32,812 nt of DNA, taken from NCBI GenBank assembly GCA_913060575.1, contig CAJXRR010000007.1, positions 1 through 32,812 of the forward strand, written 5' to 3'. This document shows positions 5,779 through 21,352 of the stretch, one piece after another. How positions within the stretch are numbered: position 1 is the stretch's first letter; every line of letters starts with the position of its first letter. Source of the stretch: an uncultured Flavobacterium sp. Its GTDB lineage: Bacteria > Bacteroidota > Bacteroidia > Flavobacteriales > Flavobacteriaceae. Below the pieces are notes generated by a model. That model was not told the origin of the DNA. It was given only the letters and a program-made list of their open reading frames with translations, and did no database searches. A program made the translations under genes and the position numbers.

Positions 5779-6457
5779 TTTTGCTATTCTTTAAAGTTGT
5801 GTTTACTAAATGTATTAAAAACTCTTTTATTTTATGTGATGAATCACAATCTGTGATAGAGGTGAAATGATCTTTTAAAAAGCTTTGATATAAGGCTCCT
5901 TCAATAACCGTACTAGCCAGACTTAAAGGGTATGGATATGAATTATCTATTTCTAAAATAATTTCTTCTAACCTTTTAACCAATCTTTTAAAAACAGAAA
6001 AGTAACCTTCCTTATTTTCAGAATCTACTTCTTTGGTTAAATATGATTTGGAAAACTCATTAATAATAATTTGATTTAACAAAACTTCATTAATATGACC
6101 ATAGTTAGAATCTTGGCTAATCGTCTGAGTTAATATCTCTATAGATTTTTCTATTTTTTCAGTTGGACTATTTACATTAAAAGTACTAAATACTAATTGA
6201 TATTCAATCCAACTCCAATACCAAGAGGTTAAGTAGAGTAGTAATTTATGTTTGTTTTCGAAATATCTATAGATAGAACTTTCGTTTGATTGTATTTCTT
6301 TTCCTAATTTCTTAAAAGTAAATGCTTCTACACCAATCTCATGAATAAGTTTGATGCTATTCTCTATAATTTTTTTCCCTAGTTCTGAAGTCTCAGGGTC
6401 TTTATTATAAAGGTTTTCGTTTACTTGAATCTTTATGGTTGATAGTAATCTATCCAT
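5768..6457 (-). CDS. TetR/AcrR family transcriptional regulator
   Basis: N-terminal HTH: GKKIIENSIKLIHEIGVEAFTFKKLGKEIQSNESSIYRYFENKHKLL; overlaps ABC start by 11 nt. Confidence 0.85.
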   Translation of the reverse strand: MDRLLSTIKIQVNENLYNKDPETSELGKKIIENSIKLIHEIGVEAFTFKKLGKEIQSNESSIYRYFENKHKLLLYLTSWYWSWIEYQLVFSTFNVNSPTEKIEKSIEILTQTISQDSNYGHINEVLLNQIIINEFSKSYLTKEVDSENKEGYFSVFKRLVKRLEEIILEIDNSYPYPLSLASTVIEGALYQSFLKDHFTSITDCDSSHKIKEFLIHLVNTTLKNSKNVR

Positions 6458-6482
6458 ATTAAAATCATTTAGAGTGCAAATA

Positions 6483-6499
6483 TAATAGTATTACTATTA
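6483..6499. promoter_or_regulatory. Candidate TetR operator, perfect palindrome TAATAGTA-T-TACTATTA
   Basis: 17-bp perfect palindrome about 26 bp upstream of the tetR start, overlapping a minus-strand TATATTTG element. Confidence 0.62.
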
Positions 6500-6614
6500 A
6501 AAAAGAGCGCAATAATTTTATTTAATGAAAAATTAACATATGAATTATTAAAATAATTGAGTAAAAATAAATTAATATCTTGTCAAGATAGTCATGTTAT
6601 ATAGTCTGTAGAAG

Positions 6615-8801
6615 CTATTTTACAATCTTTTTCTGAAATAAAATGGTGTTATTTTCAGAATATGCTTTTAAGATATAAATACCACTTGCTAGATTGTTAA
6701 TCTGTAAATCAATTAACCCATTATGATTTGATTTTATCTCAGAAGTAATCAATTTACCAGTTAAAGAAATCAATTGAAGTTGAATATCTTCAAGATATGG
6801 AGTCTTGATATGTAACAAATTATCAACAGGAATAGGATATACAATTGTATTGTCATTTAACTCTTCATCATTGACACTTAAATTACCTGAAAAATATTGT
6901 TCTGCCAGTTCAAAGGAATCTTTTCCAATTTTTTCTCCGATGATTCTACCTCTAATATCATCGATAGGAGGATGAATTCCGCCCCAAATTCTAGATAAGC
7001 TTGTTTGATCAGAAGCATCTTGATAGGTAGCCCATTGTAGAACAAAACTCTCTGAGGGCCCTTCTTCAAATACTAAAAAATCATTTTGAATCACATCAAA
7101 AGTTCCCATTCCACCTGGAAAAAATTTACTACCTGTAATTAATGTCAAAGTTTCTGAAGCAGCTCTTGAAAATGTAGAGTGACCTGAAAGATATCCTGCA
7201 AACGGAGGCGTTACAAAAGTTGGACGTTGATATGGCCACCAATGAGTTCCTAAAATCCAATCAACGCCTGCAATATCAGTATCAGGATCTGCTATAAAAT
7301 CGGGTCCTTTCCAAGACATTACTTTAATTTTACCAACATTTTCTCCATTTGCACCAGCTAATGGATCTCCAGTTTCAATCAATTCTATCAACCCAGCAAT
7401 TAAGGGCAGTCCATGAGGATCAAAACTTGCTAAACCAGGATCGGTACTTTGTCCTTTTGAAGCCATATAACGAATTGCAGAGATAGGACGTAAATAATCA
7501 TAATATCCTTTAATTCCCCAAGTATCAACAGCAGAATCATGCATGGCACCACCTAAAGCTAAATAACTTTTAATATCCCATTCTAAATCACTTAAAATTG
7601 GCCCTTCACCTCCAAATTGTTTTACGGTTTGAGGATGATCACTAACGTAATTCATTAAGGTAAACCAATGTCCTGGAGGAGTTTCAGAGTCGGGTCCATC
7701 TGCCCAAAACTCTGCTAAAACTCTAGCGTAGTCAGCTCTTTTTACCATTTGAGGAGTATATGGCATATTGGTTACGGGGTTCAGTGTATGACCCGCTCCA
7801 ATATCTCCACCATTGGTGAAGTCATAAAAAGTTTTATATTCTTCAAATGTGGTTGGAAAATCTGAAAAATCTACATTTCCAATAGAAGAAGGAGAAATAT
7901 CGATCATGGTATTATTAGCTGGATCTAGATGAGCAGACCAAGAAATTACCAAGGCAAAATGCCACTTGTAAGGATCATCAATTCCATCTGCTGTAGAATT
8001 TTGAATATAAGCTGGTGCTCCGGGATCATTATAAACATACGAATCAAATCCGTTATTTAAAATTTGTAAATCAGATGCTTTTAAAGAGAACGGAGTTACT
8101 TGTCCCCATTCTGGGCCTAAAAAATCTGGAGTATCAGCAGGAAAAACATTACCGCTTTGATCAATAAAAATATCAAAGGCAAGAGGTTGCCATCTGTTTG
8201 GGTCTGTTAAATCATTATCTTCATATAATTCAAGAATCAAAGGATCATTAGTAGGAGAATAAAATTCACTCTCATAGTCATTTGTTTCATTAGAGCCATC
8301 TTGCAATCCAAAAGCAATCATTTCTTGTGCTAAATAATTTCCTAAAGCAGCATATGAATTTGTGCTATAATCAACAGAAATAAAATTAACATCGTATCCA
8401 TACGATTCAAATAAAGTAGTAAAATTAGCTAATGAGTTTGTGGCTCCTGGAGAATTTGCAAATCGATGATTTAATAAACGATACATGGCATAACTTATAA
8501 TCTCATGAATCGCATCATTGGTATTTGAAGGAGCAGCGATACCATTAAAGTTAGTGGTATAACCTCCAAAGGTTTTTCCTAAAAAAACGGTTTCGGCATT
8601 AGTATCAAAAATTGCCCAAGCATCATACATTAAAACTGATGAATGAAATAAGTTCCTGGAATGAATAGTTGGTCTTGCAAAATCGTTTCTAATCGCTTCT
8701 AATAACTCATCATTCCAATCCCTTGCAACAGAGTTTTGTGAATATACATGTGAAGTTTGAGCTATTATAATTAATAATAGGATTTTTAATAATAATTTCA
8801 T
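6615..8801 (-). CDS. Vanadium-dependent haloperoxidase-like PAP2-fold protein with T9SS type A sorting domain
   Basis: K-x6-RP (KGYYDYLRP), SGHS (PPFAGYLSGHSTFSR), SRIWGGIHPPIDD motifs; signal peptide; C-terminal VYPIPVDNLLHI...LASGIYILKAYSENNTILFQKKIVK. Confidence 0.88.
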   Translation of the reverse strand: MKLLLKILLLIIIAQTSHVYSQNSVARDWNDELLEAIRNDFARPTIHSRNLFHSSVLMYDAWAIFDTNAETVFLGKTFGGYTTNFNGIAAPSNTNDAIHEIISYAMYRLLNHRFANSPGATNSLANFTTLFESYGYDVNFISVDYSTNSYAALGNYLAQEMIAFGLQDGSNETNDYESEFYSPTNDPLILELYEDNDLTDPNRWQPLAFDIFIDQSGNVFPADTPDFLGPEWGQVTPFSLKASDLQILNNGFDSYVYNDPGAPAYIQNSTADGIDDPYKWHFALVISWSAHLDPANNTMIDISPSSIGNVDFSDFPTTFEEYKTFYDFTNGGDIGAGHTLNPVTNMPYTPQMVKRADYARVLAEFWADGPDSETPPGHWFTLMNYVSDHPQTVKQFGGEGPILSDLEWDIKSYLALGGAMHDSAVDTWGIKGYYDYLRPISAIRYMASKGQSTDPGLASFDPHGLPLIAGLIELIETGDPLAGANGENVGKIKVMSWKGPDFIADPDTDIAGVDWILGTHWWPYQRPTFVTPPFAGYLSGHSTFSRAASETLTLITGSKFFPGGMGTFDVIQNDFLVFEEGPSESFVLQWATYQDASDQTSLSRIWGGIHPPIDDIRGRIIGEKIGKDSFELAEQYFSGNLSVNDEELNDNTIVYPIPVDNLLHIKTPYLEDIQLQLISLTGKLITSEIKSNHNGLIDLQINNLASGIYILKAYSENNTILFQKKIVK

Positions 8802-8908: not shown

Positions 8909-11900
8909 TTTTTTTACTCCAGGTAAACCTGTTGGTTTCCCTTGTTGATTCCACCAGAACCCTTTTGCTTTCTTTTTCCTTGGATAGACTTCATCTAATG
9001 TATTTCCATCATACAAACGACCATTTTTCATTACTTGAAGTATTGTATTTGTATTTCGGATATTCTCTAATGGGTTTTTATCTAAGATAATAAAGTCAGC
9101 TAATTTTCCAACTTCTATAGATCCAATATCTCCATCTAATCCAAGAGATTTAGCTCCTAAAATTGTTGCAACTTTTAGTGCATTCATATTTGAAGTTCCA
9201 GAAGCTGTTGCCCAAAGTTCCCAATGATATCCTAAGCCTTGTAATTGTCCATGACTTCCAACTCCTGCTAAACCACCAGCATTTACTAAATCTTCTACAA
9301 ACTCTGCATGTTTTGTAAATACATGTTCTTCATCCATAAACCAACCTGGCCTTCTTCTAGATTTACTTGCTAAATCAGTATACGGAGTAAAATATTGTAG
9401 TTTTTTATCATGATATGGGTTTTCTCTAGAATAGAAATAATTTTCAGCCCAAGGACCACCATAAGAAACTAATAAGGTTGGCGTATAAGCAATTTGTGAT
9501 TGCGCAGCAGATTGAATAATATCTTTGTACAACGGAGTAATAGGATAAGAGTGTTCATGTCCTGGATATCCATCTAAGATTTCTGTAATGTTCTTTTTAA
9601 AGTCCAATGCACCTTCTGTAGTAGGCATAAGCTTTTGCTCTTTAGCTCCTTGAATCACCCATTGTCTATGCTGTCTATTACCTACCATATACATTTTAAT
9701 GGTATTGGTGTTATAATACTCGCTATACTTTTTCAAAGCTTCTTTAGTGTCATCTAAGCTTTTTAAGTTGTATGCCCAATATCCTAATCCTGGTCCAGTA
9801 GAATATGCTCTAGGTCCTAACATCTCTCCAGTTTTTACCAAATCAAAATAGGTTAATACATCGGTAGTTCCTGTTTGTGGATCTCTAGAAGCTGTTACTC
9901 CATAGGCTAAATTAGCTGCATACGACCAAACTTGTTTTTTATGAATTCCTGCATAGGTTCTTAAATGTGAATGAGTATCTACCATTCCTGGTATAATAGT
10001 TTTTCCTTTTGCATCAATAATTGTTGCTTTTCTAGGAACCTCTATACTTCCAGATTTTCCAATGGCTTTAATTCTATTATCAACCACCAAAATGTCTCCG
10101 TTCTCAATCACTTGATCACCATTCATGGTAATAATTCTTGCACCTTGAATTAAGGCTGTTCCATTAGGAATATCTCTAGTAATCTCAACCTTTACTTTTA
10201 ATTCTGTAGGTTGATATCCTTTATCATCTTTCGCTTTCTCTTTGTCTTTCTTTTCTTCTTCTTTGCGCTTTTCTTTATCAAGTTTGTCTAATTCTTCCTT
10301 TCGTGTTTTTGCTTCTTGCTTTTTCTTTTCTTGTAAAGCTTTTGCTTCCTCTAGATTATACATAAAATAAGCACTTCCTAACGACCAATGAACACTTTTT
10401 CCGTCACTTGTCCATGCAGGAAACTCGCCTCCGTAAGTAGTTAGTTTCCAAGAAGGGAATTGAGAAGAATTTGGATTTGATACTGAAATATTTGGTGTCT
10501 GACCAAATTTAGGAACGGTTACCACATATACGTCTGTATTAATTAACGCCAAGGCTTTGTCTCCTTTTGGTGCCATATAAATTTCAACTGGTCTTGAACC
10601 ATTATTTCTTTCTTCAGGATAATCTACATCATCATCTAAATGAGAATAATTAGCTGTATCATGTTTACTATTTAAGCTTCCAAATGTCACAATTCCTGTA
10701 ACACTTAAATGATTTTTTGAATCTGTTCCATCCCAACGCATTGAACTCAATCCACTACCATTACTCATGTAAATTCGATTATCTCCCTCTATAAAATGTG
10801 GATTTCTTCGACCATTTGTTTTTGTGATGAACGTGTGTTCTCCTCCATTTGAAGGAATCCAGGCAAAATCTTCAGATCCATTAAAAGCACCACGTAAATA
10901 AGCATACCTAAAACTTTGTGCGCTTCCTTTTGTGAATAAGATTCGGTTAGTTTTAGCATCCCAAACAGGTGTTCCGTATAAAGCAGATTCTTTGGTTAGT
11001 TTTACTGGTTTTGACCTTCTAGCTAAAGCAATTTTGTATAAATGTCCACCATCTAGTTCTGACCAAGTTGTATAAACGACTTCTTTTCCATCAGGAGACC
11101 AACTAGGCTGTGTTTCAATAATGTTAGTATTTGTTAATCTTTTTGGTGTTCCGTTAGGAAGATCCATCACATACAATTTGTTCAATGCATTAAACACAAC
11201 TTTCTTTCCATCAGGAGAAGGTTTTGCATTTCTAATCTGATTGGCAAACAATTTTGTGTCATCAGAAATTGGATACTTGAATTCTAATTTTGGACCAATA
11301 GCCAATTCTACATCAACTGAAAATGGAATTTCAACTGCATTTCCTCCAGAAACAGGAATTCTATAAATTTTTCCACCGTAAGAAGCCAATACTTGTGTAT
11401 TGTCTGGTGTAAATGCCATGGCGGGTAAAACTCCTAATGGAGCAACAGACTCTTGCTCATCACGTTGAACCGGATAGGCTAACCATCGTTCATCTCCAGA
11501 ATTTAAATTTCTTATAACTAATCCTGTTTTTTCTTCATACCGAGAACCATATACCATCCATTTTCCATCCGATGAAAGTGTAGTGCTAAAAGCAGATCCG
11601 TATCGTCTAGTGACTCTTGCAGAGTTTCCAGTCTCTAAATCATATCTTGAAATTTGATATTGAGGCAATTGTGCATTGTAGTTCCAACCACCTGTTCGAA
11701 AAGAATAGTAAATATATTTACTATCAGGGCTATACACAGGTTCAACTGTCTTAAGATTTGAAGGTTCTTTAATAAGTTGAGTTCCGCCACCGCCATCTTT
11801 ATGATACAAGTGTAATTTTAAATTTCTTTTCCCTTTGGCAGCAACAATATAGTTTCCATCTGGAGACCAATCTGCAGATTGTACAGATCCTTTTTTATCT

Positions 11901-12322
11901 TTAGTAATTTGGGTTGTTTCTTTGGTTTCTAGGTCTAAAACCCAAACATTATCATTTCCGCTTCTGTCTGAAGTAAATACAATGCTTTTTCCATCTGGAC
12001 TATAACGTGGATTTGTGTCCAAGGCCAATCCATCTGTAATACGGGTAGCTGTTCCTCCAGAAAAAGGAATTGTATACAAATCACCCAGCATATCAAATAT
12101 AATTGTTTTTCCATCTGGACTAATATCTAAAGAAAGCCAAGTTCCTTCGGTGGTATTGAACTTAATCATTCGACCACTTTCTAGGGGTAAATCTTTAAAC
12201 TTTTCTTGTCCTGATAAAGAATCTTTTTTTTGTGAAAAAGTACTTTGAGAGAGCATCCCTATAAAAATGAACATAAGAATTCCATAATTCTTAAGGGAAA
12301 GTTTCGTTTTACTTATTTGCAT
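8906..12322 (-). CDS. Secreted amidohydrolase with N-terminal TolB/PD40 beta-propeller
   Basis: Repeated SPDGK...I.F propeller blades; C-terminal amidohydrolase IIPGMVDTHSHLR...HGQLQGLGYHWELW...GSIEVGKLADFIILDKNPLENI. Confidence 0.88.
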   Translation of the reverse strand: MQISKTKLSLKNYGILMFIFIGMLSQSTFSQKKDSLSGQEKFKDLPLESGRMIKFNTTEGTWLSLDISPDGKTIIFDMLGDLYTIPFSGGTATRITDGLALDTNPRYSPDGKSIVFTSDRSGNDNVWVLDLETKETTQITKDKKGSVQSADWSPDGNYIVAAKGKRNLKLHLYHKDGGGGTQLIKEPSNLKTVEPVYSPDSKYIYYSFRTGGWNYNAQLPQYQISRYDLETGNSARVTRRYGSAFSTTLSSDGKWMVYGSRYEEKTGLVIRNLNSGDERWLAYPVQRDEQESVAPLGVLPAMAFTPDNTQVLASYGGKIYRIPVSGGNAVEIPFSVDVELAIGPKLEFKYPISDDTKLFANQIRNAKPSPDGKKVVFNALNKLYVMDLPNGTPKRLTNTNIIETQPSWSPDGKEVVYTTWSELDGGHLYKIALARRSKPVKLTKESALYGTPVWDAKTNRILFTKGSAQSFRYAYLRGAFNGSEDFAWIPSNGGEHTFITKTNGRRNPHFIEGDNRIYMSNGSGLSSMRWDGTDSKNHLSVTGIVTFGSLNSKHDTANYSHLDDDVDYPEERNNGSRPVEIYMAPKGDKALALINTDVYVVTVPKFGQTPNISVSNPNSSQFPSWKLTTYGGEFPAWTSDGKSVHWSLGSAYFMYNLEEAKALQEKKKQEAKTRKEELDKLDKEKRKEEEKKDKEKAKDDKGYQPTELKVKVEITRDIPNGTALIQGARIITMNGDQVIENGDILVVDNRIKAIGKSGSIEVPRKATIIDAKGKTIIPGMVDTHSHLRTYAGIHKKQVWSYAANLAYGVTASRDPQTGTTDVLTYFDLVKTGEMLGPRAYSTGPGLGYWAYNLKSLDDTKEALKKYSEYYNTNTIKMYMVGNRQHRQWVIQGAKEQKLMPTTEGALDFKKNITEILDGYPGHEHSYPITPLYKDIIQSAAQSQIAYTPTLLVSYGGPWAENYFYSRENPYHDKKLQYFTPYTDLASKSRRRPGWFMDEEHVFTKHAEFVEDLVNAGGLAGVGSHGQLQGLGYHWELWATASGTSNMNALKVATILGAKSLGLDGDIGSIEVGKLADFIILDKNPLENIRNTNTILQVMKNGRLYDGNTLDEVYPRKKKAKGFWWNQQGKPTGLPGVKK

Positions 12323-12435: not shown

Positions 12436-13788
12436 ATGCCACTACAGTTTTCTGATTTAGGAATTCATAAAGAATTGCAAAAACGTTTAATCGATTTAGA
12501 GATTTCTGTACCTACAGAAGTTCAACATAAAGTGATTCCATTTATTCTTGAAAAAAAGAAAGATTTGGTTGCTTTAGCGAAGACAGGAACTGGGAAAACA
12601 GCAGCTTTTGGCTTGCCTTTATTGCAACTAATTAATCCTGAAGAGAATAGTGTTCAAGCTGTTATCATGGCACCTACAAGAGAGTTAGGTCAGCAAATCT
12701 ATAATAACATGGTATTGTATGCTTCTTACAATCCTGAAATTGCTGTTGTAGGAGTTTTCGGAGGAGCAACCATTAAATCTCAAGTAGATATTTTAAAAAG
12801 AACTACGCATATTGTTGTAGCGACTCCGGGTCGTTTGATTGATTTGATTGAGCGTAAGGCGATAGATATAACAAATATCAAATATTTTGTATTAGACGAA
12901 GCTGATGAGATGATTAGTGCTTTGAGTACTGAAGTAGAAACCATCTTTAAAGAAATTCCAAAACTTACAAGAACCTTATTATTTACGGCAACCATGCCTG
13001 GAGCCATCAAGCAATTGGTTCAGAATTATCTTTCTAAGAATGCTATAACTATTGAAGCCGACATGGCTACTGTTGGGCATCAAGGAATACAACATCAATA
13101 CACAGTTGTTGAACCCATAGAAAAATTAGAAGTTTTACTTCATTTTTTATATGCTCGCGAAGGACAACAAGGAATCATTTTTTGTAAAACAAAAGCAGCA
13201 GTTAATAAACTAGGAAAAAACTTAGCTAAAAACAAATTCTCATCAGGAACTTTACACGGAAGTTTAACACAAGGAATTCGTGATCGAGTAATGGATCAGT
13301 TTAGAGAAGGTCATATTAATGTATTAGTAGCAACAGATTTAGCTGCTAGAGGAATTGATGTAAAAGAAATCTCTTATGTCATTAATTATCACTTGCCTGA
13401 CACTTATGAAGCTTATGTTCATAGAAGTGGTAGAACTGCTAGAGCTGGAGCAGAGGGTCTTTCATTAACAATTCTACAAAAAGAAGAAGTTGTAGATATT
13501 GCAGATTTTGAAAAGGAATTAGGTATTAAATTCCAAGAAGTTAAAAAAGCAGATGCTGGTAGTATAGAAGAAAACAATGCATTATTATGGGCAAGAAAAA
13601 TATTTAAAACAAAACCTAATCGTACAGTTTCTAATGACTTTAAGTCGAAAGTGAAAACGATTTTCCATCATTTAACGAAAGAAGAGTTAATCGAAAAGGT
13701 TTTGGCAAATCATTTGAATCATTTAGCACAAACAAACAGTGGTAAGTCGATTACTGAAGCATCAACAAAGCAAGATAAAAAGAAGTAA
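12436..13788 (+). CDS. DEAD/DEAH box RNA helicase
   Basis: AKTGTGKT, PTRELG, TPGR, DEAD, TAT, ATDLAARGID, HRSGRTARAG motifs. Confidence 0.95.
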   Translation: MPLQFSDLGIHKELQKRLIDLEISVPTEVQHKVIPFILEKKKDLVALAKTGTGKTAAFGLPLLQLINPEENSVQAVIMAPTRELGQQIYNNMVLYASYNPEIAVVGVFGGATIKSQVDILKRTTHIVVATPGRLIDLIERKAIDITNIKYFVLDEADEMISALSTEVETIFKEIPKLTRTLLFTATMPGAIKQLVQNYLSKNAITIEADMATVGHQGIQHQYTVVEPIEKLEVLLHFLYAREGQQGIIFCKTKAAVNKLGKNLAKNKFSSGTLHGSLTQGIRDRVMDQFREGHINVLVATDLAARGIDVKEISYVINYHLPDTYEAYVHRSGRTARAGAEGLSLTILQKEEVVDIADFEKELGIKFQEVKKADAGSIEENNALLWARKIFKTKPNRTVSNDFKSKVKTIFHHLTKEELIEKVLANHLNHLAQTNSGKSITEASTKQDKKK

Positions 13789-13793
13789 TTCTT

Positions 13794-15104
13794 ATGGCAA
13801 ATATTATCAAAGATCAACAAGATATTTTAGCAAAATTAAATATTTATGAGTTGAATCCAATGCAAGAAGAAGCAATAGCAACCATAGATGCTAATACCAA
13901 TACAGTTTTATTATCTCCAACAGGAACAGGAAAAACCTTGGCTTTTGCTTTGCCTTTATTAAATACTTTAGATCCAGAATTAGAAGAAGTTCAGGCCTTA
14001 ATTTTAGTTCCGTCAAGAGAACTTGCGATACAAATAGAACAAGTGATTAGGTCCATGGGTTCAGGCTATAAAGTAAATGCAGTTTATGGAGGTAGACCCA
14101 TGTCTAAAGATAAAATTGAATTGAAACATGTTCCTGCAATTTTAATTGGAACGCCTGGTAGAATTTCTGATCATTTTAGTAATGATCGTTTTTCAAAAGA
14201 CTTCATTAAAACATTGGTTTTAGATGAGTTTGATAAATCGCTAGAGGTTGGTTTTGAATATGAAATGAGAGGAATTATTAACACATTAACAAGTGTAAAT
14301 AAACGCATCTTAACTTCTGCAACACAAGGAGTTGAAATTCCCGATTTTGTAAGGTTAGACAAACCTAAAACAGTCAATTATCTAGGAACTTCCATGTCAA
14401 AGTTGACCATTAAAACGGTGATTTCTCCAGCAAAAAACAAATTAAATACGTTATTGCATTTATTAAATCATATTGGTAATCAACAAGGAATTATCTTTTG
14501 CAATTTAAAAGATAGTATCCAACGTGTAAGTACTTTTTTAGAAAGTAAAAATATCAGTCATGGTTGCTTTAATGGTGGTATGGAACAAAAAGATAGAGAA
14601 CGTTCTTTAATTAAATTCAGAAATGGAACTAATCAACTATTAGTTGCAACTGATTTAGCGGCAAGAGGAATCGATATTCCTGAAATGAAATACATCATCC
14701 ATTATGAATTACCACAATCAAAAGAGGAATTTACTCATAGAAATGGAAGAACAGCTAGAGTTTCTGCTAAAGGAACTGCTTATGTTTTAAAATGGAAAGA
14801 TGAACGATTACCAGATTTTATTGGTAAAACTCCTATCGAAGATATTAGCAAGCAAGCAGTTAGAAAACCTGTCTTTTGGGAAACTTTATTTATCTCTGGA
14901 GGACGAAAAGATAAAATTTCAAAGGGAGATATCGCTGGAATGTTTTTTAAACTAGGTGGTTTAACACAAGATCAACTAGGAATTATAGAATTAAAACAAG
15001 ATTGTGCATTTGTAGCGGTACCTGCTTCCATAGCGAATCAATTAGTTGAGACATTAAATAATACCCGCTTAAAGAAGAAAAAAGTTAGAATAACTAGTAT
15101 CTAG
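13794..15104 (+). CDS. DEAD/DEAH box RNA helicase with DbpA-like RNA-binding C-terminus (motif II DEFD)
   Basis: SPTGTGKT, PSRELA, TPGR, DEFD, SAT, ATDLAARGID, HRNGRTAR; C-term LFISGGRKDKISKGDIAGMFF...CAFVAVPASIANQLVETLNNTRLKKKKVRI. Confidence 0.92.
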   Translation: MANIIKDQQDILAKLNIYELNPMQEEAIATIDANTNTVLLSPTGTGKTLAFALPLLNTLDPELEEVQALILVPSRELAIQIEQVIRSMGSGYKVNAVYGGRPMSKDKIELKHVPAILIGTPGRISDHFSNDRFSKDFIKTLVLDEFDKSLEVGFEYEMRGIINTLTSVNKRILTSATQGVEIPDFVRLDKPKTVNYLGTSMSKLTIKTVISPAKNKLNTLLHLLNHIGNQQGIIFCNLKDSIQRVSTFLESKNISHGCFNGGMEQKDRERSLIKFRNGTNQLLVATDLAARGIDIPEMKYIIHYELPQSKEEFTHRNGRTARVSAKGTAYVLKWKDERLPDFIGKTPIEDISKQAVRKPVFWETLFISGGRKDKISKGDIAGMFFKLGGLTQDQLGIIELKQDCAFVAVPASIANQLVETLNNTRLKKKKVRITSI

Positions 15105-15283: not shown

Positions 15284-16375
15284 ATAAGGTTCCCTATCGA
15301 AAATCCAAAATTTTCTAGAGAAATCAACCCAGATTTCTCAAAGACATTAAGAAAACGAGTAAATCAACATTTCAAAACAAGAAATACAAGTAGAAATGCA
15401 AATGTGACCATGGTTACAAAAACAATCTTTATGATTGCTTTGTTTTTTGTGCCACTTTTAATTCTTTCATCCGGAATAGTATCTTCAACACCGATACTTT
15501 TTGCCTTATACATATTAAGTGGTTTTGGAATGGCTGGAGTTGGAATGGGAGTGATGCATGACGCAATACATGGTTCGTACTCAAAAAACAAAAAAATCAA
15601 TAAATTTTTAGGGTATTCTTTTAATTTAATAGGAGGGAATGCGACAGTTTGGAAAATACAGCACAATGTATTACATCACACCTACACTAATATTGAAGAA
15701 GCTGATGATGATTTAAATGCACCTTTTTTCTTGCGTTTTTCACCACATGCAAAACATTATTGGGTACACCAATTTCAACATATTTATATTTGGTTTTTCT
15801 ATTGTATCTCAACAATATCTTGGATCACTACAAAAGATTTTGTTCGTTTAAAGCGTTATAGAGATATGGGTTTTTTAGACAAAAAAAATGAATATAATAA
15901 AGCTTTGGCTGGAATGTCAGCATGGAAAATAGCATATTATATATATGCCTTAATTTTACCAATGATCATGTTGCCTTTTTCTTGGGGAATCATCTTATTA
16001 GCATTTTTATGCATGCATTTTGTAACAGGCTTTTTAGTAAGTATTGTTTTTCAAATTGCACATATTATGCCTAATACAAACTTTCCACTTCCAAATAATA
16101 ATGGCGAAATGGATGATTCTTGGTATGGACATCAATTGGCAACAACAACAAATTTTTCTCCTAAAAGCAAGCTTTTGTATTGGTTAATAGGAGGATTAAA
16201 TTATCAAGTAGAACATCATGTATTACCAGATGTTTGTCATGTACATTATAAAGGATTATCAAAAATTGTTGCAGATACAGCAAAAGAATTTGGAATGACT
16301 TATCATGTAAAATCATCTCTTTTTTCTGCAATTGGAGATCATACAAGAATGCTTAAATCTTTAGGTAAAAAGTAA
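15284..16375 (+). CDS. Fatty acid / acyl-CoA desaturase (N-terminus extended upstream of the ORF-track start at 15404)
   Basis: Histidine boxes HDAIH, HNVLHH, QVEHH; frame open from TAA at 15281 and encodes conserved-looking N-terminus KFSREINPDFSKTLRKRVNQHFK; exact start uncertain, 15284 is the outer limit. Confidence 0.82.
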   Translation: MRFPIENPKFSREINPDFSKTLRKRVNQHFKTRNTSRNANVTMVTKTIFMIALFFVPLLILSSGIVSSTPILFALYILSGFGMAGVGMGVMHDAIHGSYSKNKKINKFLGYSFNLIGGNATVWKIQHNVLHHTYTNIEEADDDLNAPFFLRFSPHAKHYWVHQFQHIYIWFFYCISTISWITTKDFVRLKRYRDMGFLDKKNEYNKALAGMSAWKIAYYIYALILPMIMLPFSWGIILLAFLCMHFVTGFLVSIVFQIAHIMPNTNFPLPNNNGEMDDSWYGHQLATTTNFSPKSKLLYWLIGGLNYQVEHHVLPDVCHVHYKGLSKIVADTAKEFGMTYHVKSSLFSAIGDHTRMLKSLGKK

Positions 16376-16495: not shown

Positions 16496-16951
16496 ATGGC
16501 AAAATCGCAACAGACATTTAATAAGAGTGAAAAAGAGAAAAAACGTTTAAAGAAACGTGAAGATAAGCGTAAAAAGATGGAGGCTCGTAAAGCTGATGTA
16601 AGAGAAAATGGGAGCAAAGGAATTGAGTTTGCTTATGTAGACCATAATGGTAATTTAACAGACACTCCGCCAGATCCAACCCAAAAGATTAAAATTAAAG
16701 CTAAGAATATAGAAATTAGTGTTCCTAAAATGACAGATGCCGATAAGGTAGATCCTGTTAGAAATGGAAAAGTTTCTTTCTTTGATTCTTCTAAAGGTTT
16801 TGGTTTTATTATTGATTTAGAAAACCAAGAAAAATATTTTACACACGTAAGTGGTATTATAGATGAAATTGCAGAAAATGATAAAGTTACTTTCGAACTT
16901 GAAAAAGGAATGAAAGGAATGAATGCAGTAAAAGTAACCTTAAAGAAGTAA
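16496..16951 (+). CDS. Cold-shock-domain protein with basic N-terminal extension
   Basis: C-terminal GKVSFFDSSKGFGFIIDLENQEKYFTHVSGIIDEIAENDKVTFELEKGMKGMNAVKV; N-terminal KSEKEKKRLKKREDKRKKMEARK. Confidence 0.9.
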   Translation: MAKSQQTFNKSEKEKKRLKKREDKRKKMEARKADVRENGSKGIEFAYVDHNGNLTDTPPDPTQKIKIKAKNIEISVPKMTDADKVDPVRNGKVSFFDSSKGFGFIIDLENQEKYFTHVSGIIDEIAENDKVTFELEKGMKGMNAVKVTLKK

Positions 16952-17874: not shown

Positions 17875-18012
17875 GCGTGTATTATATGAAACTATGAATA
17901 GCTATTTTATAACTTTCGCCCTTCATAATTATTAATTCAACCATTTACTCAATTCTAGAGAACTGTATCATTATCTTCGTAAAAATTTTTTTCGAAAAGA
18001 ACACTACAGTTA

Positions 18013-19575
18013 ATGCCAGAAGACCATAAAGCACCCAACAATACAAAAATCATTTCATTAGAAGAAATAGATCAATGTATTTCTATTCTAGAACAATTAA
18101 CGCTAGATACCAATCAATTATTTGAGCTTTCAGAGGAGAAAAGAACTGCTTTATTAAAAGTATCAGGCTTGTTGTCTCGTCCTAATAGAGACGAATTTCA
18201 ACGCAGAAGAAAAGACGCAAAAAAGGCAGCAAAGCGTAAAATGATTGCCAAAGATACGCATGCAAGGAAAACTACAGGAATACGTTCTGCGCGTGAATCA
18301 GCCTTGTTTATAGCTCCAAAATTATTAGCATCAGCTTCTATTCCAGATAAAACTTTAGAATTAGAATCTCCAAGAAACTGTTACGTTTGTAAAACAGTAT
18401 TCACAAAACTGCATCATTTTTATGATACGATGTGTACATCTTGTGGCGATTTAAATTATGCAAAACGTTTTCAAACCACCGATTTGAAAGATCAAGTAGC
18501 TGTAATTACTGGATCTCGTTTAAAAATCGGCTATCACATTACTTTAATGTTACTTCGTTCTGGAGCAACTGTTGTCGCAACCACAAGATTCCCTGCAGAT
18601 TCTGCAATCCGGTTTTCTAAAGAAGAAGATTATAAAGACTGGAATGATCGTTTACATATACACGGACTAGATTTACGACATATTCCTAGTGTTGAAATTT
18701 TTTGTAATTATATCGAACAAAAATACGATCGATTAGATATTTTAATTAATAACGCGGCACAAACAGTAAGAAGACCTTCAGGTTTTTATTTTCATCTCAT
18801 GGAAAACGAAAAAAAACCAATTGAAGAGCTTCCCAAATTAGCACAAACATTTTTAAAAGATCATATAAACTGTTTACAAGAATTATCTGATTTAAGTATG
18901 GAAACTTCTAAAACCAATAAAAACAATGTATTGCCAGTTACTTGGCACGGACCTGAGCCAGGTATTGGGTTGCGAAATTCAGCTGAGCTCTCTCAAATTC
19001 CGTATAGTTTTGACAATTCGTTGCAAACCTCAGAAGTTTTCCCTGAAGGAGAACTAGATGCCGATTTACAACAAGTAGATTTAAGAAAAACTAATAGTTG
19101 GCGTTTAAAATTAGGTGAAATTGAAACCACCGAAATGGTAGAAGTACAATTGGTAAATGCTGTAGCACCTTTTGTTTTATGCAATCGTTTGTCTAATTTA
19201 ATGATGAAAGAAAATACAGGTAAGAAACATATCATCAATGTTTCTGCGATGGAAGGGAAGTTTCATCGATTTAAAAAGGTTGACAGACATCCGCATACAA
19301 ATATGGCGAAAGCCGCTTTAAATATGCTCACTCATACATCTTCTGCAACTTTTGCAAAGTCAGGTATTTATATGAATGCAGTTGATACAGGCTGGGTTAC
19401 GGATGAAGATCCGGCAGAATTGGCTAAGAAAAAAGAAACCATTCATGATTTTCAACCACCTTTAGATATTGTAGATGGAGCAGCAAGAGTAATGGATCCA
19501 TTAATTGATGGTATCAATACAGGGAAACATTGGTCTGGGAAGTTTTTAAAAGACTATTTCCCTATTGATTGGTAA
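18013..19575 (+). CDS. SDR-family oxidoreductase with N-terminal Cys4 zinc-ribbon-like motif
   Basis: [24 protein letters not shown]; Rossmann [34 protein letters not shown]. Confidence 0.85.
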
Positions 19576-19614: not shown

Positions 19615-20337
19615 TTATTTCAACTGAATACAACCCAAAGCATCTAATATTCTTATAATCAAATAAGTCACATCAATTTCATACCATTTTACACCAAAAT
19701 TAGCGCTACTTGCATTTTTATGATGGTTATTGTGATATCCTTCGCCCATCATTAAGAAATCAAAACGGAAAAGATTCTTACTTGTATTTTTCATGGTATA
19801 ATTTACATAACCATAGATATGACCAAACCAGTTAATGATGACGCCATGTATAGGAGCCATTAAAAATGTAACAGGTAACAAGAACCATTGCCACCAAGCA
19901 GTTACAAAAAAGGTGAAGAATAAAATATAAATAGTAATCCAAAGGATACGAGAAAATCGAGAACTTGCAAAAAGATCAAAATTTTTCCATTGAGGAACAT
20001 TTTTAGTAAAACGTTGATCTACATCAATACGTTCTTTATTAATATCTTGATAGATTGTTTTTGTTTTCCACATCATAGCAAATAAATTTGCATCATAGGA
20101 AGGGGAATGTGGATCTTTTTTTGTGTCAGTATAAGCATGATGCATTCGATGCATAATTCCATAACCATAAGCACTTAAATAGCTAGAACCTTGAAAAACC
20201 CAAGTTAGAATAAACGTAATGCGTTCCATTGTTTTAGACATTGTAAATACCTGATGTGCAGCATATCGATGCAAAAAGAAAGATTGAAAAAATAACCCAC
20301 CATACCAGAGCACTAAAACAAAAATAATAATTGTCAT
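19615..20337 (-). CDS. Acyl-CoA (stearoyl-type) fatty acid desaturase
   Basis: Histidine boxes HRYAAH, HRMHH, HNNHH; multiple TM segments. Confidence 0.9.
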   Translation of the reverse strand: MTIIIFVLVLWYGGLFFQSFFLHRYAAHQVFTMSKTMERITFILTWVFQGSSYLSAYGYGIMHRMHHAYTDTKKDPHSPSYDANLFAMMWKTKTIYQDINKERIDVDQRFTKNVPQWKNFDLFASSRFSRILWITIYILFFTFFVTAWWQWFLLPVTFLMAPIHGVIINWFGHIYGYVNYTMKNTSKNLFRFDFLMMGEGYHNNHHKNASSANFGVKWYEIDVTYLIIRILDALGCIQLK

Positions 20338-20406: not shown

Positions 20407-20976
20407 TTACAAACGTTTTCTAATTCTACTCAACGCTTGTGCAGTAACACCTATATAAGAACTGATGTATTTTAAAGGAATCACTTGTAAAAGCTCTGGA
20501 CGTTCTTTAAATAGTTTTAGATACCGTTCTTCAGCTGATAGGTTTAGTAAGTTTTGTTCGCGTTTCGATTTTATTAAAAAAAGACGTTCGGCAGTTAATC
20601 TTCCTATAAGATTTCCTATTTGGGTAGTTTTGTAAACAGATTGTAAATCATCGTAAGTAATGCTTAAAATAGTTGTTTCTGTTAACGCTTGTAATTGATA
20701 TGCAGAAGCGGTTTGAGTAAGGAAAGAATCATAAGCACTTATAAATTGGTCTTTAAAACTAAAACCAAAAGTGATTTCCTTTTCTGGGTTTTCTTTAGGT
20801 ATGTATAATCGAACGACACCTGATTCTATGAAAGAAATATGATTTTCTATTTCATTTATTCTTAAGAAAATTGATTTCTTTGGAATCACACGACGCTGTA
20901 ATTTTGATGTGAAAAAATCCCAATCTATGTTAGAAATGGTTGCTATTTGATCTAAGTAAGCTTTTATCTGTTCCAA
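20407..20976 (-). CDS. Crp/Fnr family transcriptional regulator
   Basis: cNMP-binding-like fold, C-terminal HTH RYLKLFKERPELLQVIPLKYISSYIGVTAQALSRIRKRL. Confidence 0.88.
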   Translation of the reverse strand: MEQIKAYLDQIATISNIDWDFFTSKLQRRVIPKKSIFLRINEIENHISFIESGVVRLYIPKENPEKEITFGFSFKDQFISAYDSFLTQTASAYQLQALTETTILSITYDDLQSVYKTTQIGNLIGRLTAERLFLIKSKREQNLLNLSAEERYLKLFKERPELLQVIPLKYISSYIGVTAQALSRIRKRL

Positions 20977-21160: not shown

Positions 21161-21352
21161 ATGAGTAAAGGAACAGTAAAATTTTTCAATGAGTCTAAAG
21201 GATTTGGATTTATCACTGAAGAAGGAGTTGACAAAGATCACTTTGTACACATTTCAGGATTAATCGACGAAGTACGCGAAGGCGACCAAGTTGAATTTGA
21301 TCTACAAGAAGGAAACAAAGGATTAAATGCAGTAAACGTAAAAGTTATCTAA
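21161..21352 (+). CDS. Cold shock protein (CspA family)
   Basis: MSKGTVKFFNESKGFGFITEEGVDKDHFVHISGLIDEVREGDQVEFDLQEGNKGLNAVNVKVI. Confidence 0.96.
   Translation: MSKGTVKFFNESKGFGFITEEGVDKDHFVHISGLIDEVREGDQVEFDLQEGNKGLNAVNVKVI

Follow-up and report, generated by a model that had tools for sequence, protein, structure and literature searches.

The gene at 18013..19575 of the window (the whole stretch of DNA that was analysed, 32,812 nucleotides) encodes a short-chain dehydrogenase/reductase (SDR) that carries a four-cysteine (Cys4) module, has no tyrosine at the classical active-site position and lies among genes for RNA helicases and cold-shock proteins, while divergent relatives are found among RNA-repair genes. 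These repeated neighbours suggest that the Cys4-SDR looks after RNA. In the best explanation, to which we give about an even chance, it would belong to an old, uncharacterised family of RNA-associated, NADP(H)-binding SDRs with a Tyr-less site, acting in cold-shock RNA remodelling and in RNA repair; we infer the association with RNA from gene context.

SDRs are among the largest enzyme superfamilies, and in this subfamily the odd active-site residues are invariant across phyla, yet the annotation of its members, where seen, is generic only. If it acts on RNA, RNA repair and the cold-shock remodelling of RNA in bacteria would gain a component that binds NADP(H). The protein would then also be a concrete candidate for genetic tests, in marine Flavobacteriaceae that are in culture as well as in genomes with the RNA-repair-linked form.

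The SDR core and its active site

The features of the gene and its product are as follows.

18013..19575, + strand: Cys4-SDR gene, ORF of 520 aa with an ATG start (110 sequences aligned)
18058..18276, + strand: N-terminal helical region, residues 16-88 (helices predicted by AlphaFold2 at 16-31, 41-55 and 59-88)
18190..18288, + strand: basic segment, residues 60-92 (13 K/R, 4 D/E)
18379..18444, + strand: Cys4 module C123-x2-C126-x14-C141-x2-C144 (Cys invariant in 110/110 and in 12 diverse members)
18508..18531, + strand: dinucleotide-binding loop TGSRLKIG, in which K171 replaces the central Gly (T166, G167, R169, K171 and G173 invariant)
18586..18594, + strand: RFP (R192-P194) after the second strand, invariant
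18745..18765, + strand: INNAAQT (245-251), equivalent of the SDR NNAG motif, invariant
18784..19077, + strand: insertion between the two SDR halves, about residues 258-355, of variable length across the family
19156..19158, + strand: N382, the Asn of the catalytic tetrad, kept (110/110; aligns with the Asn of the paralogues)
19246..19248, + strand: A412 at the position of the catalytic Ser (alignments of homologues and genome paralogues)
19288..19311, + strand: H426-P-H-T429-N-M-A-K433, with Thr at the position of the catalytic Tyr and the Lys kept (alignments)
19555..19557, + strand: Y515 in the C-terminal LKDY, an invariant Tyr

By its Rossmann fold and its adh_short-type profile, the protein is a member of the SDR superfamily. 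Pfam recognised adh_short/adh_short_C2 in two pieces, at residues 161-254 and 369-476 (E 1.2e-18), and in a Foldseek search against the PDB the AlphaFold2 model fell among classical SDRs (TMt, the TM-score normalised to the target, 0.65-0.79 among the 50 matches listed). The model was built with 33 related sequences and has a mean pLDDT of 72; ten-residue blocks reach about 76-94 over residues 151-280, and the last seven residues are of low confidence.

With classical SDRs of the FabG type (PF00106/PF13561) the family shares the Rossmann core, an NNAG-like motif (NNAA at 246-249), the Asn and Lys of the tetrad (N382 and K433) and the overall fold. It differs from them in having Thr in place of Tyr (T429), Ala in place of Ser (A412) and, family-wide, Lys at the central Gly position of TGxxxGxG (K171), and it adds an insertion of about 100 residues, the Cys4 module and a basic helical N-terminus. 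When the SDRs of the same genome were compared (9 rows aligned, 8 of them distinct, two further SDRs left out), all of those aligned were seen to keep the central Gly, Ser, Tyr and Lys where the family has K171, A412, T429 and K433. The four Cys, N382, T429 and K433 did not vary in any of the 110 aligned sequences, and therefore the active-site replacements are not the product of decay. Position 412 is Ala in 105 of the 110 and Ser in five members of a divergent clade.

Furthermore, about 70 positions are invariant across 12 diverse members, taken from Bacteroidota, Actinomycetota, Deinococcota, a cyanobacterium-like contig (near an integrase gene) and a Bacillota-like prophage contig. They include positions of TGxRxKxG, TRFP, INNAAQT, NVxxEGxF, HxHTNMxK, VDxGW, PLD and LKxY, as well as the four Cys. 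Many of them lie in motifs of the SDR cofactor and substrate sites. Such a pattern would suit an unusual enzyme no less than a scaffold, so that the non-catalytic character proposed in the original prediction is one of two readings. The RFP motif suggests, as far as sequence can tell, NADP(H) rather than NAD(H) as the cofactor. In addition, a Tyr may be supplied from elsewhere in the protein, as Y515 and Y124 (the latter within the first Cys knuckle) are Tyr residues invariant in the 12 members.

The original prediction gave a 520-aa SDR at 18013-19575, and on re-reading this and all its other coordinates were correct. It had placed T429-N-M-A-K433 (codons 19297-19311) at the YxxxK position, and the invariance of T429 and K433 agrees with this; it is also true that no Tyr lies between S411 and K433, that NNAA is intact and that a long insertion follows it, the last being reflected in the two-piece Pfam match. 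The description as a non-classical SDR is upheld by the T429 and K171 replacements, present in every homologue examined, and by the change of Ser to Ala in 105/110, and the search for homologues with a canonical YxxxK and no Cys4 found none. Two points needed correction: TGSRLKIG had been called intact, when its central Gly is K171 and all 9 aligned genome SDR rows have Gly there, and S411, proposed as the catalytic Ser, is one residue early, since the Ser aligns with A412.

The Cys4 module, the N-terminus and the spread of the family

The N-terminal part was also read properly at the outset as regards CYVC-x14-CTSC (codons 18379-18444), where the spacer between the two pairs is exactly 14 residues long, and the basic segment before the Rossmann fold. 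The conservation of the Cys4, which had been named as a check, was confirmed by the four invariant Cys in the 110 sequences and in the 12 diverse members. The highest net charge in any stretch of 33 residues, +12, was matched in 5 of 2000 shuffles. The basic character of the segment is preserved in most members and is absent from the 368-aa form on L111, which lacks the N-terminal helical region and is made up of the Cys4 module and the SDR alone. This short form (L111:4956-6062) lies between a ParB/methylase-like gene and a terminase-like gene on a prophage-like contig.

In the AlphaFold2 models the Cys4 module forms a beta-hairpin followed by a helix that starts at the second CxxC. This layout is that of a treble clef, and because of it metal binding by the module is likely; a treble-clef zinc site is probable. 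Of the term zinc-ribbon-like in the original prediction, the conserved Cys4 stands (110/110), and as to the fold the models fit a treble clef better. The structure search that had been proposed for the N-terminal fold (Foldseek, residues 1-160) gave no significant PDB match, only weak ones to zinc fingers and ribosomal proteins with E above 0.7. A similar CxxC...CxxC pattern is found in DUF2039 (PF10217), with weak, non-significant matches for two members (best E 0.0062), and in zinc modules of the ribosomal uS14 type, also with weak matches (E above 0.7); at this level of sequence similarity, which is not significant, we made no assignment to either family. No RNA-binding domain of a known type was recognised in the protein.

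Judged by their sequences, the Cys4-SDR proteins are a distinct family whose members come from three or more named bacterial phyla; its distribution is patchy and its conservation strong. In the genome collection, the best 80 of 568 confirmed stretches were 79-90% identical. A match at E <= 1e-40 was present in 24 of 396 genomes of the phylum, and at E <= 1e-100 in 27 of 201 genomes of the family Flavobacteriaceae. Plasmid records add members in Deinococcus, Tsukamurella and Streptomyces, and viral contigs add two, L110 (near an integrase gene) and L111 (prophage-like); the labels cyanobacterium-like (L110) and Bacillota-like (L111) come from the genes that these viral-collection contigs carry. 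The search of the phage collection matched no member of the family. Between genera the SDR is 70-90% identical, versus 64-74% for close orthologues of the neighbouring DEAD-box protein.

Several genomes carry two copies of the SDR (G439, G448, G805, G829, G834 and G861). On L075 two copies lie near each other on one strand, at 5965-7518 and 10664-12211. The divergence of the paired copies suggests separate roles.

The fold is a known one, whereas the subfamily seems not to have been described: the literature searched, which did not include the RNA-repair paper of Burroughs and Aravind 2016 (10.1093/nar/gkw722), contained no earlier description of it, no occurrence of its motif strings and nothing relevant on an SDR in cold-shock or RNA-repair operons.

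Gene neighbourhoods

In the window, the SDR gene is accompanied by the following genes for helicases and cold-shock proteins.

12436..13788, + strand: DEAD-box RNA helicase, a recurrent neighbour of the SDR
13794..15104, + strand: DEAD-box helicase with a DbpA RNA-binding domain, a recurrent neighbour
16496..16951, + strand: cold-shock-domain protein with a basic N-terminus, a context gene
21164..21343, + strand: small CspA-like cold-shock protein, a context gene

This context was evaluated in 27 Flavobacteriaceae genomes of 26 genera, with 29 SDR copies, and the expected values were taken from gene density. A DEAD-box helicase was found within 5 kb of 16 of the 29 copies (0.6 expected), and a cold-shock-domain (CSD) gene likewise within 5 kb of 16 of the 29 (0.3 expected); it should be noted that the genomes share ancestry, so that the chance figures for this linkage, and for the RNA-repair linkage below, do not come from independent samples and are guides. 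The near DEAD-box and CSD genes were co-directional with the SDR in 32 of 32 cases, often at a spacing of 3-40 bp. In 38 fetched loci the immediate same-strand upstream gene is a DEAD-box gene, with a gap below 50 bp in about 25. The orders seen were D1-D2-SDR, D1-SDR-D2, CSD-SDR and D1-CSD-SDR, and on the SDR tree the state of having a DEAD-box gene immediately upstream changes at least 12 times. Since the order varies and the state changes so often, the linkage must have been re-formed or kept under rearrangement, and there is no single frozen arrangement.

Two fatty-acid desaturases are also close to the SDR in the window (15404-16375, + strand, and 19615-20337, - strand), the second together with a Crp-like regulator (20407-20976, - strand). 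Roughly a dozen other loci also have a desaturase with a regulator close to the SDR, and these surroundings suggest a cold-adaptation region. Other families that recur around the locus are DMT transporters, a nitroreductase and ABC genes. About 35 bases 5' of the SDR start, at 17972-17979, TATCTTCG was noticed by eye as similar to a Bacteroidota -7 promoter box, and short upstream regions with TATCTTTG-like boxes were seen in the same way at several SDR loci. When the upstream regions were compared by eye, there was no obvious common long 5' leader of the cold-shock type. Rfam had no match anywhere in the window, and PADLOC gave no match to a known anti-phage defence system.

Divergent members of the family (35-38% identity) are placed among RNA-repair genes, a linkage present in their clade, whereas the window's own clade is linked to DEAD-box and CSD genes instead. 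Their neighbours are HAD_PNKP, T4 Rnl1, TROVE/Ro60 and DUF434/DUF5616 in L130; T4 Rnl2, two RlaP and DUF434 in L127, with a sister genome in L128; and RtcB, TROVE, an RLIG1-like ligase and an RNase T-type exonuclease in L132. In a whole-genome search, RlaP, TROVE or RtcB lay at most 13 kb from the SDR in four of five genomes (0.12 expected), and the chance of such linkage is still 5e-5 with a sister genome dropped; in the fifth genome the RlaP/RtcB cluster is on a different contig from the SDR. In the passages of PMC7824862 that deal with RNA repair, RNA ligases, polynucleotide kinases, RlaP and TROVE are counted among its components. Those passages do not name the SDR, and the divergent clades of our family are found inside such gene sets.

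In 20 further regions from a neighbouring family, the nearer copies are mostly arranged as DUF434-c38-SDR-(LRR)-TatD, and the more distant ones lie near Rnl2, RNaseT and metallophosphoesterase genes. The run DUF434/DUF5616, c38, SDR, LRR-like gene and TatD is kept in L127-L130, L132 and L147-L166. The c38 protein has about 220 aa and no Pfam match. Like DUF434/DUF5616 it is uncharacterised, and both may have a part in RNA repair. The leucine-rich-repeat (LRR)-like gene (Receptor L domain) recurs in the divergent clade, and an LRR gene also comes after the SDR in L110 (region L110:1-2460). In Deinococcus (region L106:5839-7565), the SDR is followed by a stretch that resembles the N-terminal part of this LRR gene. 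A plasmid search with the LRR gene of L110 found nothing. No RNA-gene neighbours of these kinds were seen in the g2 genomes, which we take to be Flavobacterium, in f24 (another family of the phylum) or in Tsukamurella, Deinococcus and Streptomyces.

Possible functions of the Cys4-SDR

According to the best explanation, in the window's clade the SDR would belong to a cold-shock RNA-remodelling set together with DEAD-box and DbpA-type helicases and CSD proteins, and in other clades to RNA-repair and RNA-quality-control sets. The basic N-terminal helix and the treble-clef-like Cys4 module would contact structured or damaged RNA, and the Rossmann core would bind NADP(H) via RFP, DLR and NNAA. The invariant pocket formed by HxHTNMxK and K171 could, without a Tyr, catalyse a reaction on a group derived from RNA or, alternatively, could sense NADP(H), in which case the SDR would be a scaffold for helicases, ligases and nucleases. 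Helicases would be its partners in cold shock, and in repair it would work with ligases and nucleases. The suggestion of the original prediction that the protein possibly acts on nucleic acid gains indirect support from the context, with DEAD-box and cold-shock genes in one clade and RNA-repair genes in another. Against a role in RNA, the desaturases of the cold-shock neighbourhood could mean that the link is to cold rather than to RNA, the basic segment is absent in L111, and several clades have no RNA neighbours.

Chief among the alternatives is an oxidoreductase that would act on small molecules with NADP(H) in stress or cold metabolism and would have RNA genes as neighbours through shared stress regulation; we consider it possible, though with odds well short of even. 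SDRs similar to 2,4-dienoyl-CoA reductase work without the classical YxxxK Tyr. The aligned 3imf reads HSAAAK, with His at K-5 and Ser, not Tyr, at K-4, and in our family H428 and T429 stand five and four residues before K433 in the same spacing; the peroxisomal dienoyl-CoA reductase 4fc6 was among both the fold and the sequence matches. The desaturases and the Crp-like gene nearby, as well as the many invariant positions in SDR motifs of the presumed active site, are also consistent with such an enzyme. However, the family lacks an acyl-CoA context and has different motifs and a Cys4 module, and any family relation to SDRs such as 4fc6 is putative. Moreover, this explanation does not predict that two different RNA gene sets are linked in different clades, and in the neighbourhoods examined no metabolic pathway gene recurs beside the SDR at a comparable frequency.

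One branch of the best explanation, taken alone, is a pseudoenzyme that would bind NADP(H) without catalysis and, as a scaffold or redox sensor, would tune RNA helicases or repair enzymes; for it our confidence is similarly tentative. The loss of the Tyr, of the central Gly and, in most members, of the Ser would fit this reading, and there is a precedent in SDR5C1 (HSD17B10/MRPP2), which retains all of the classical tetrad and lacks a Cys4 module. According to PMC10602865, human mitochondrial RNase P needs SDR5C1 as a subunit but does not need its enzymatic activity; the likeness of SDR5C1 to the proposed role, an SDR needed in an RNA-processing complex, is an analogy only. The former active site of a pseudoenzyme is usually less constrained; in this family, however, HxHTNMxK, VDxGW and PLD do not vary from phylum to phylum, and both K433 and N382 are retained.

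A more specific proposal, which we regard as unlikely, is an NADP(H)-dependent enzyme of RNA repair or modification, in which the HxHTNMxK centre of the Tyr-less SDR would catalyse the reduction or oxidation of an RNA nucleotide or end, either damaged or processed, that helicases deliver, with ligation to follow; to our knowledge, no redox step in RNA repair has been described. It is also improbable that the DEAD-box and cold-shock linkage is a by-product, with no functional meaning, of a rearranging stress-gene region in Flavobacteriaceae, an idea consistent with the many other families that recur at the locus but at odds with the full co-directionality of the near DEAD-box and CSD genes, the gaps of often a few bases and the independent placement of a separate clade beside RNA-repair genes.

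Elsewhere in the window, the reverse strand encodes at 6615-8801 a protein of 728 aa that contains DUF6851, a stretch resembling vanadium chloroperoxidase and a Por secretion tail.
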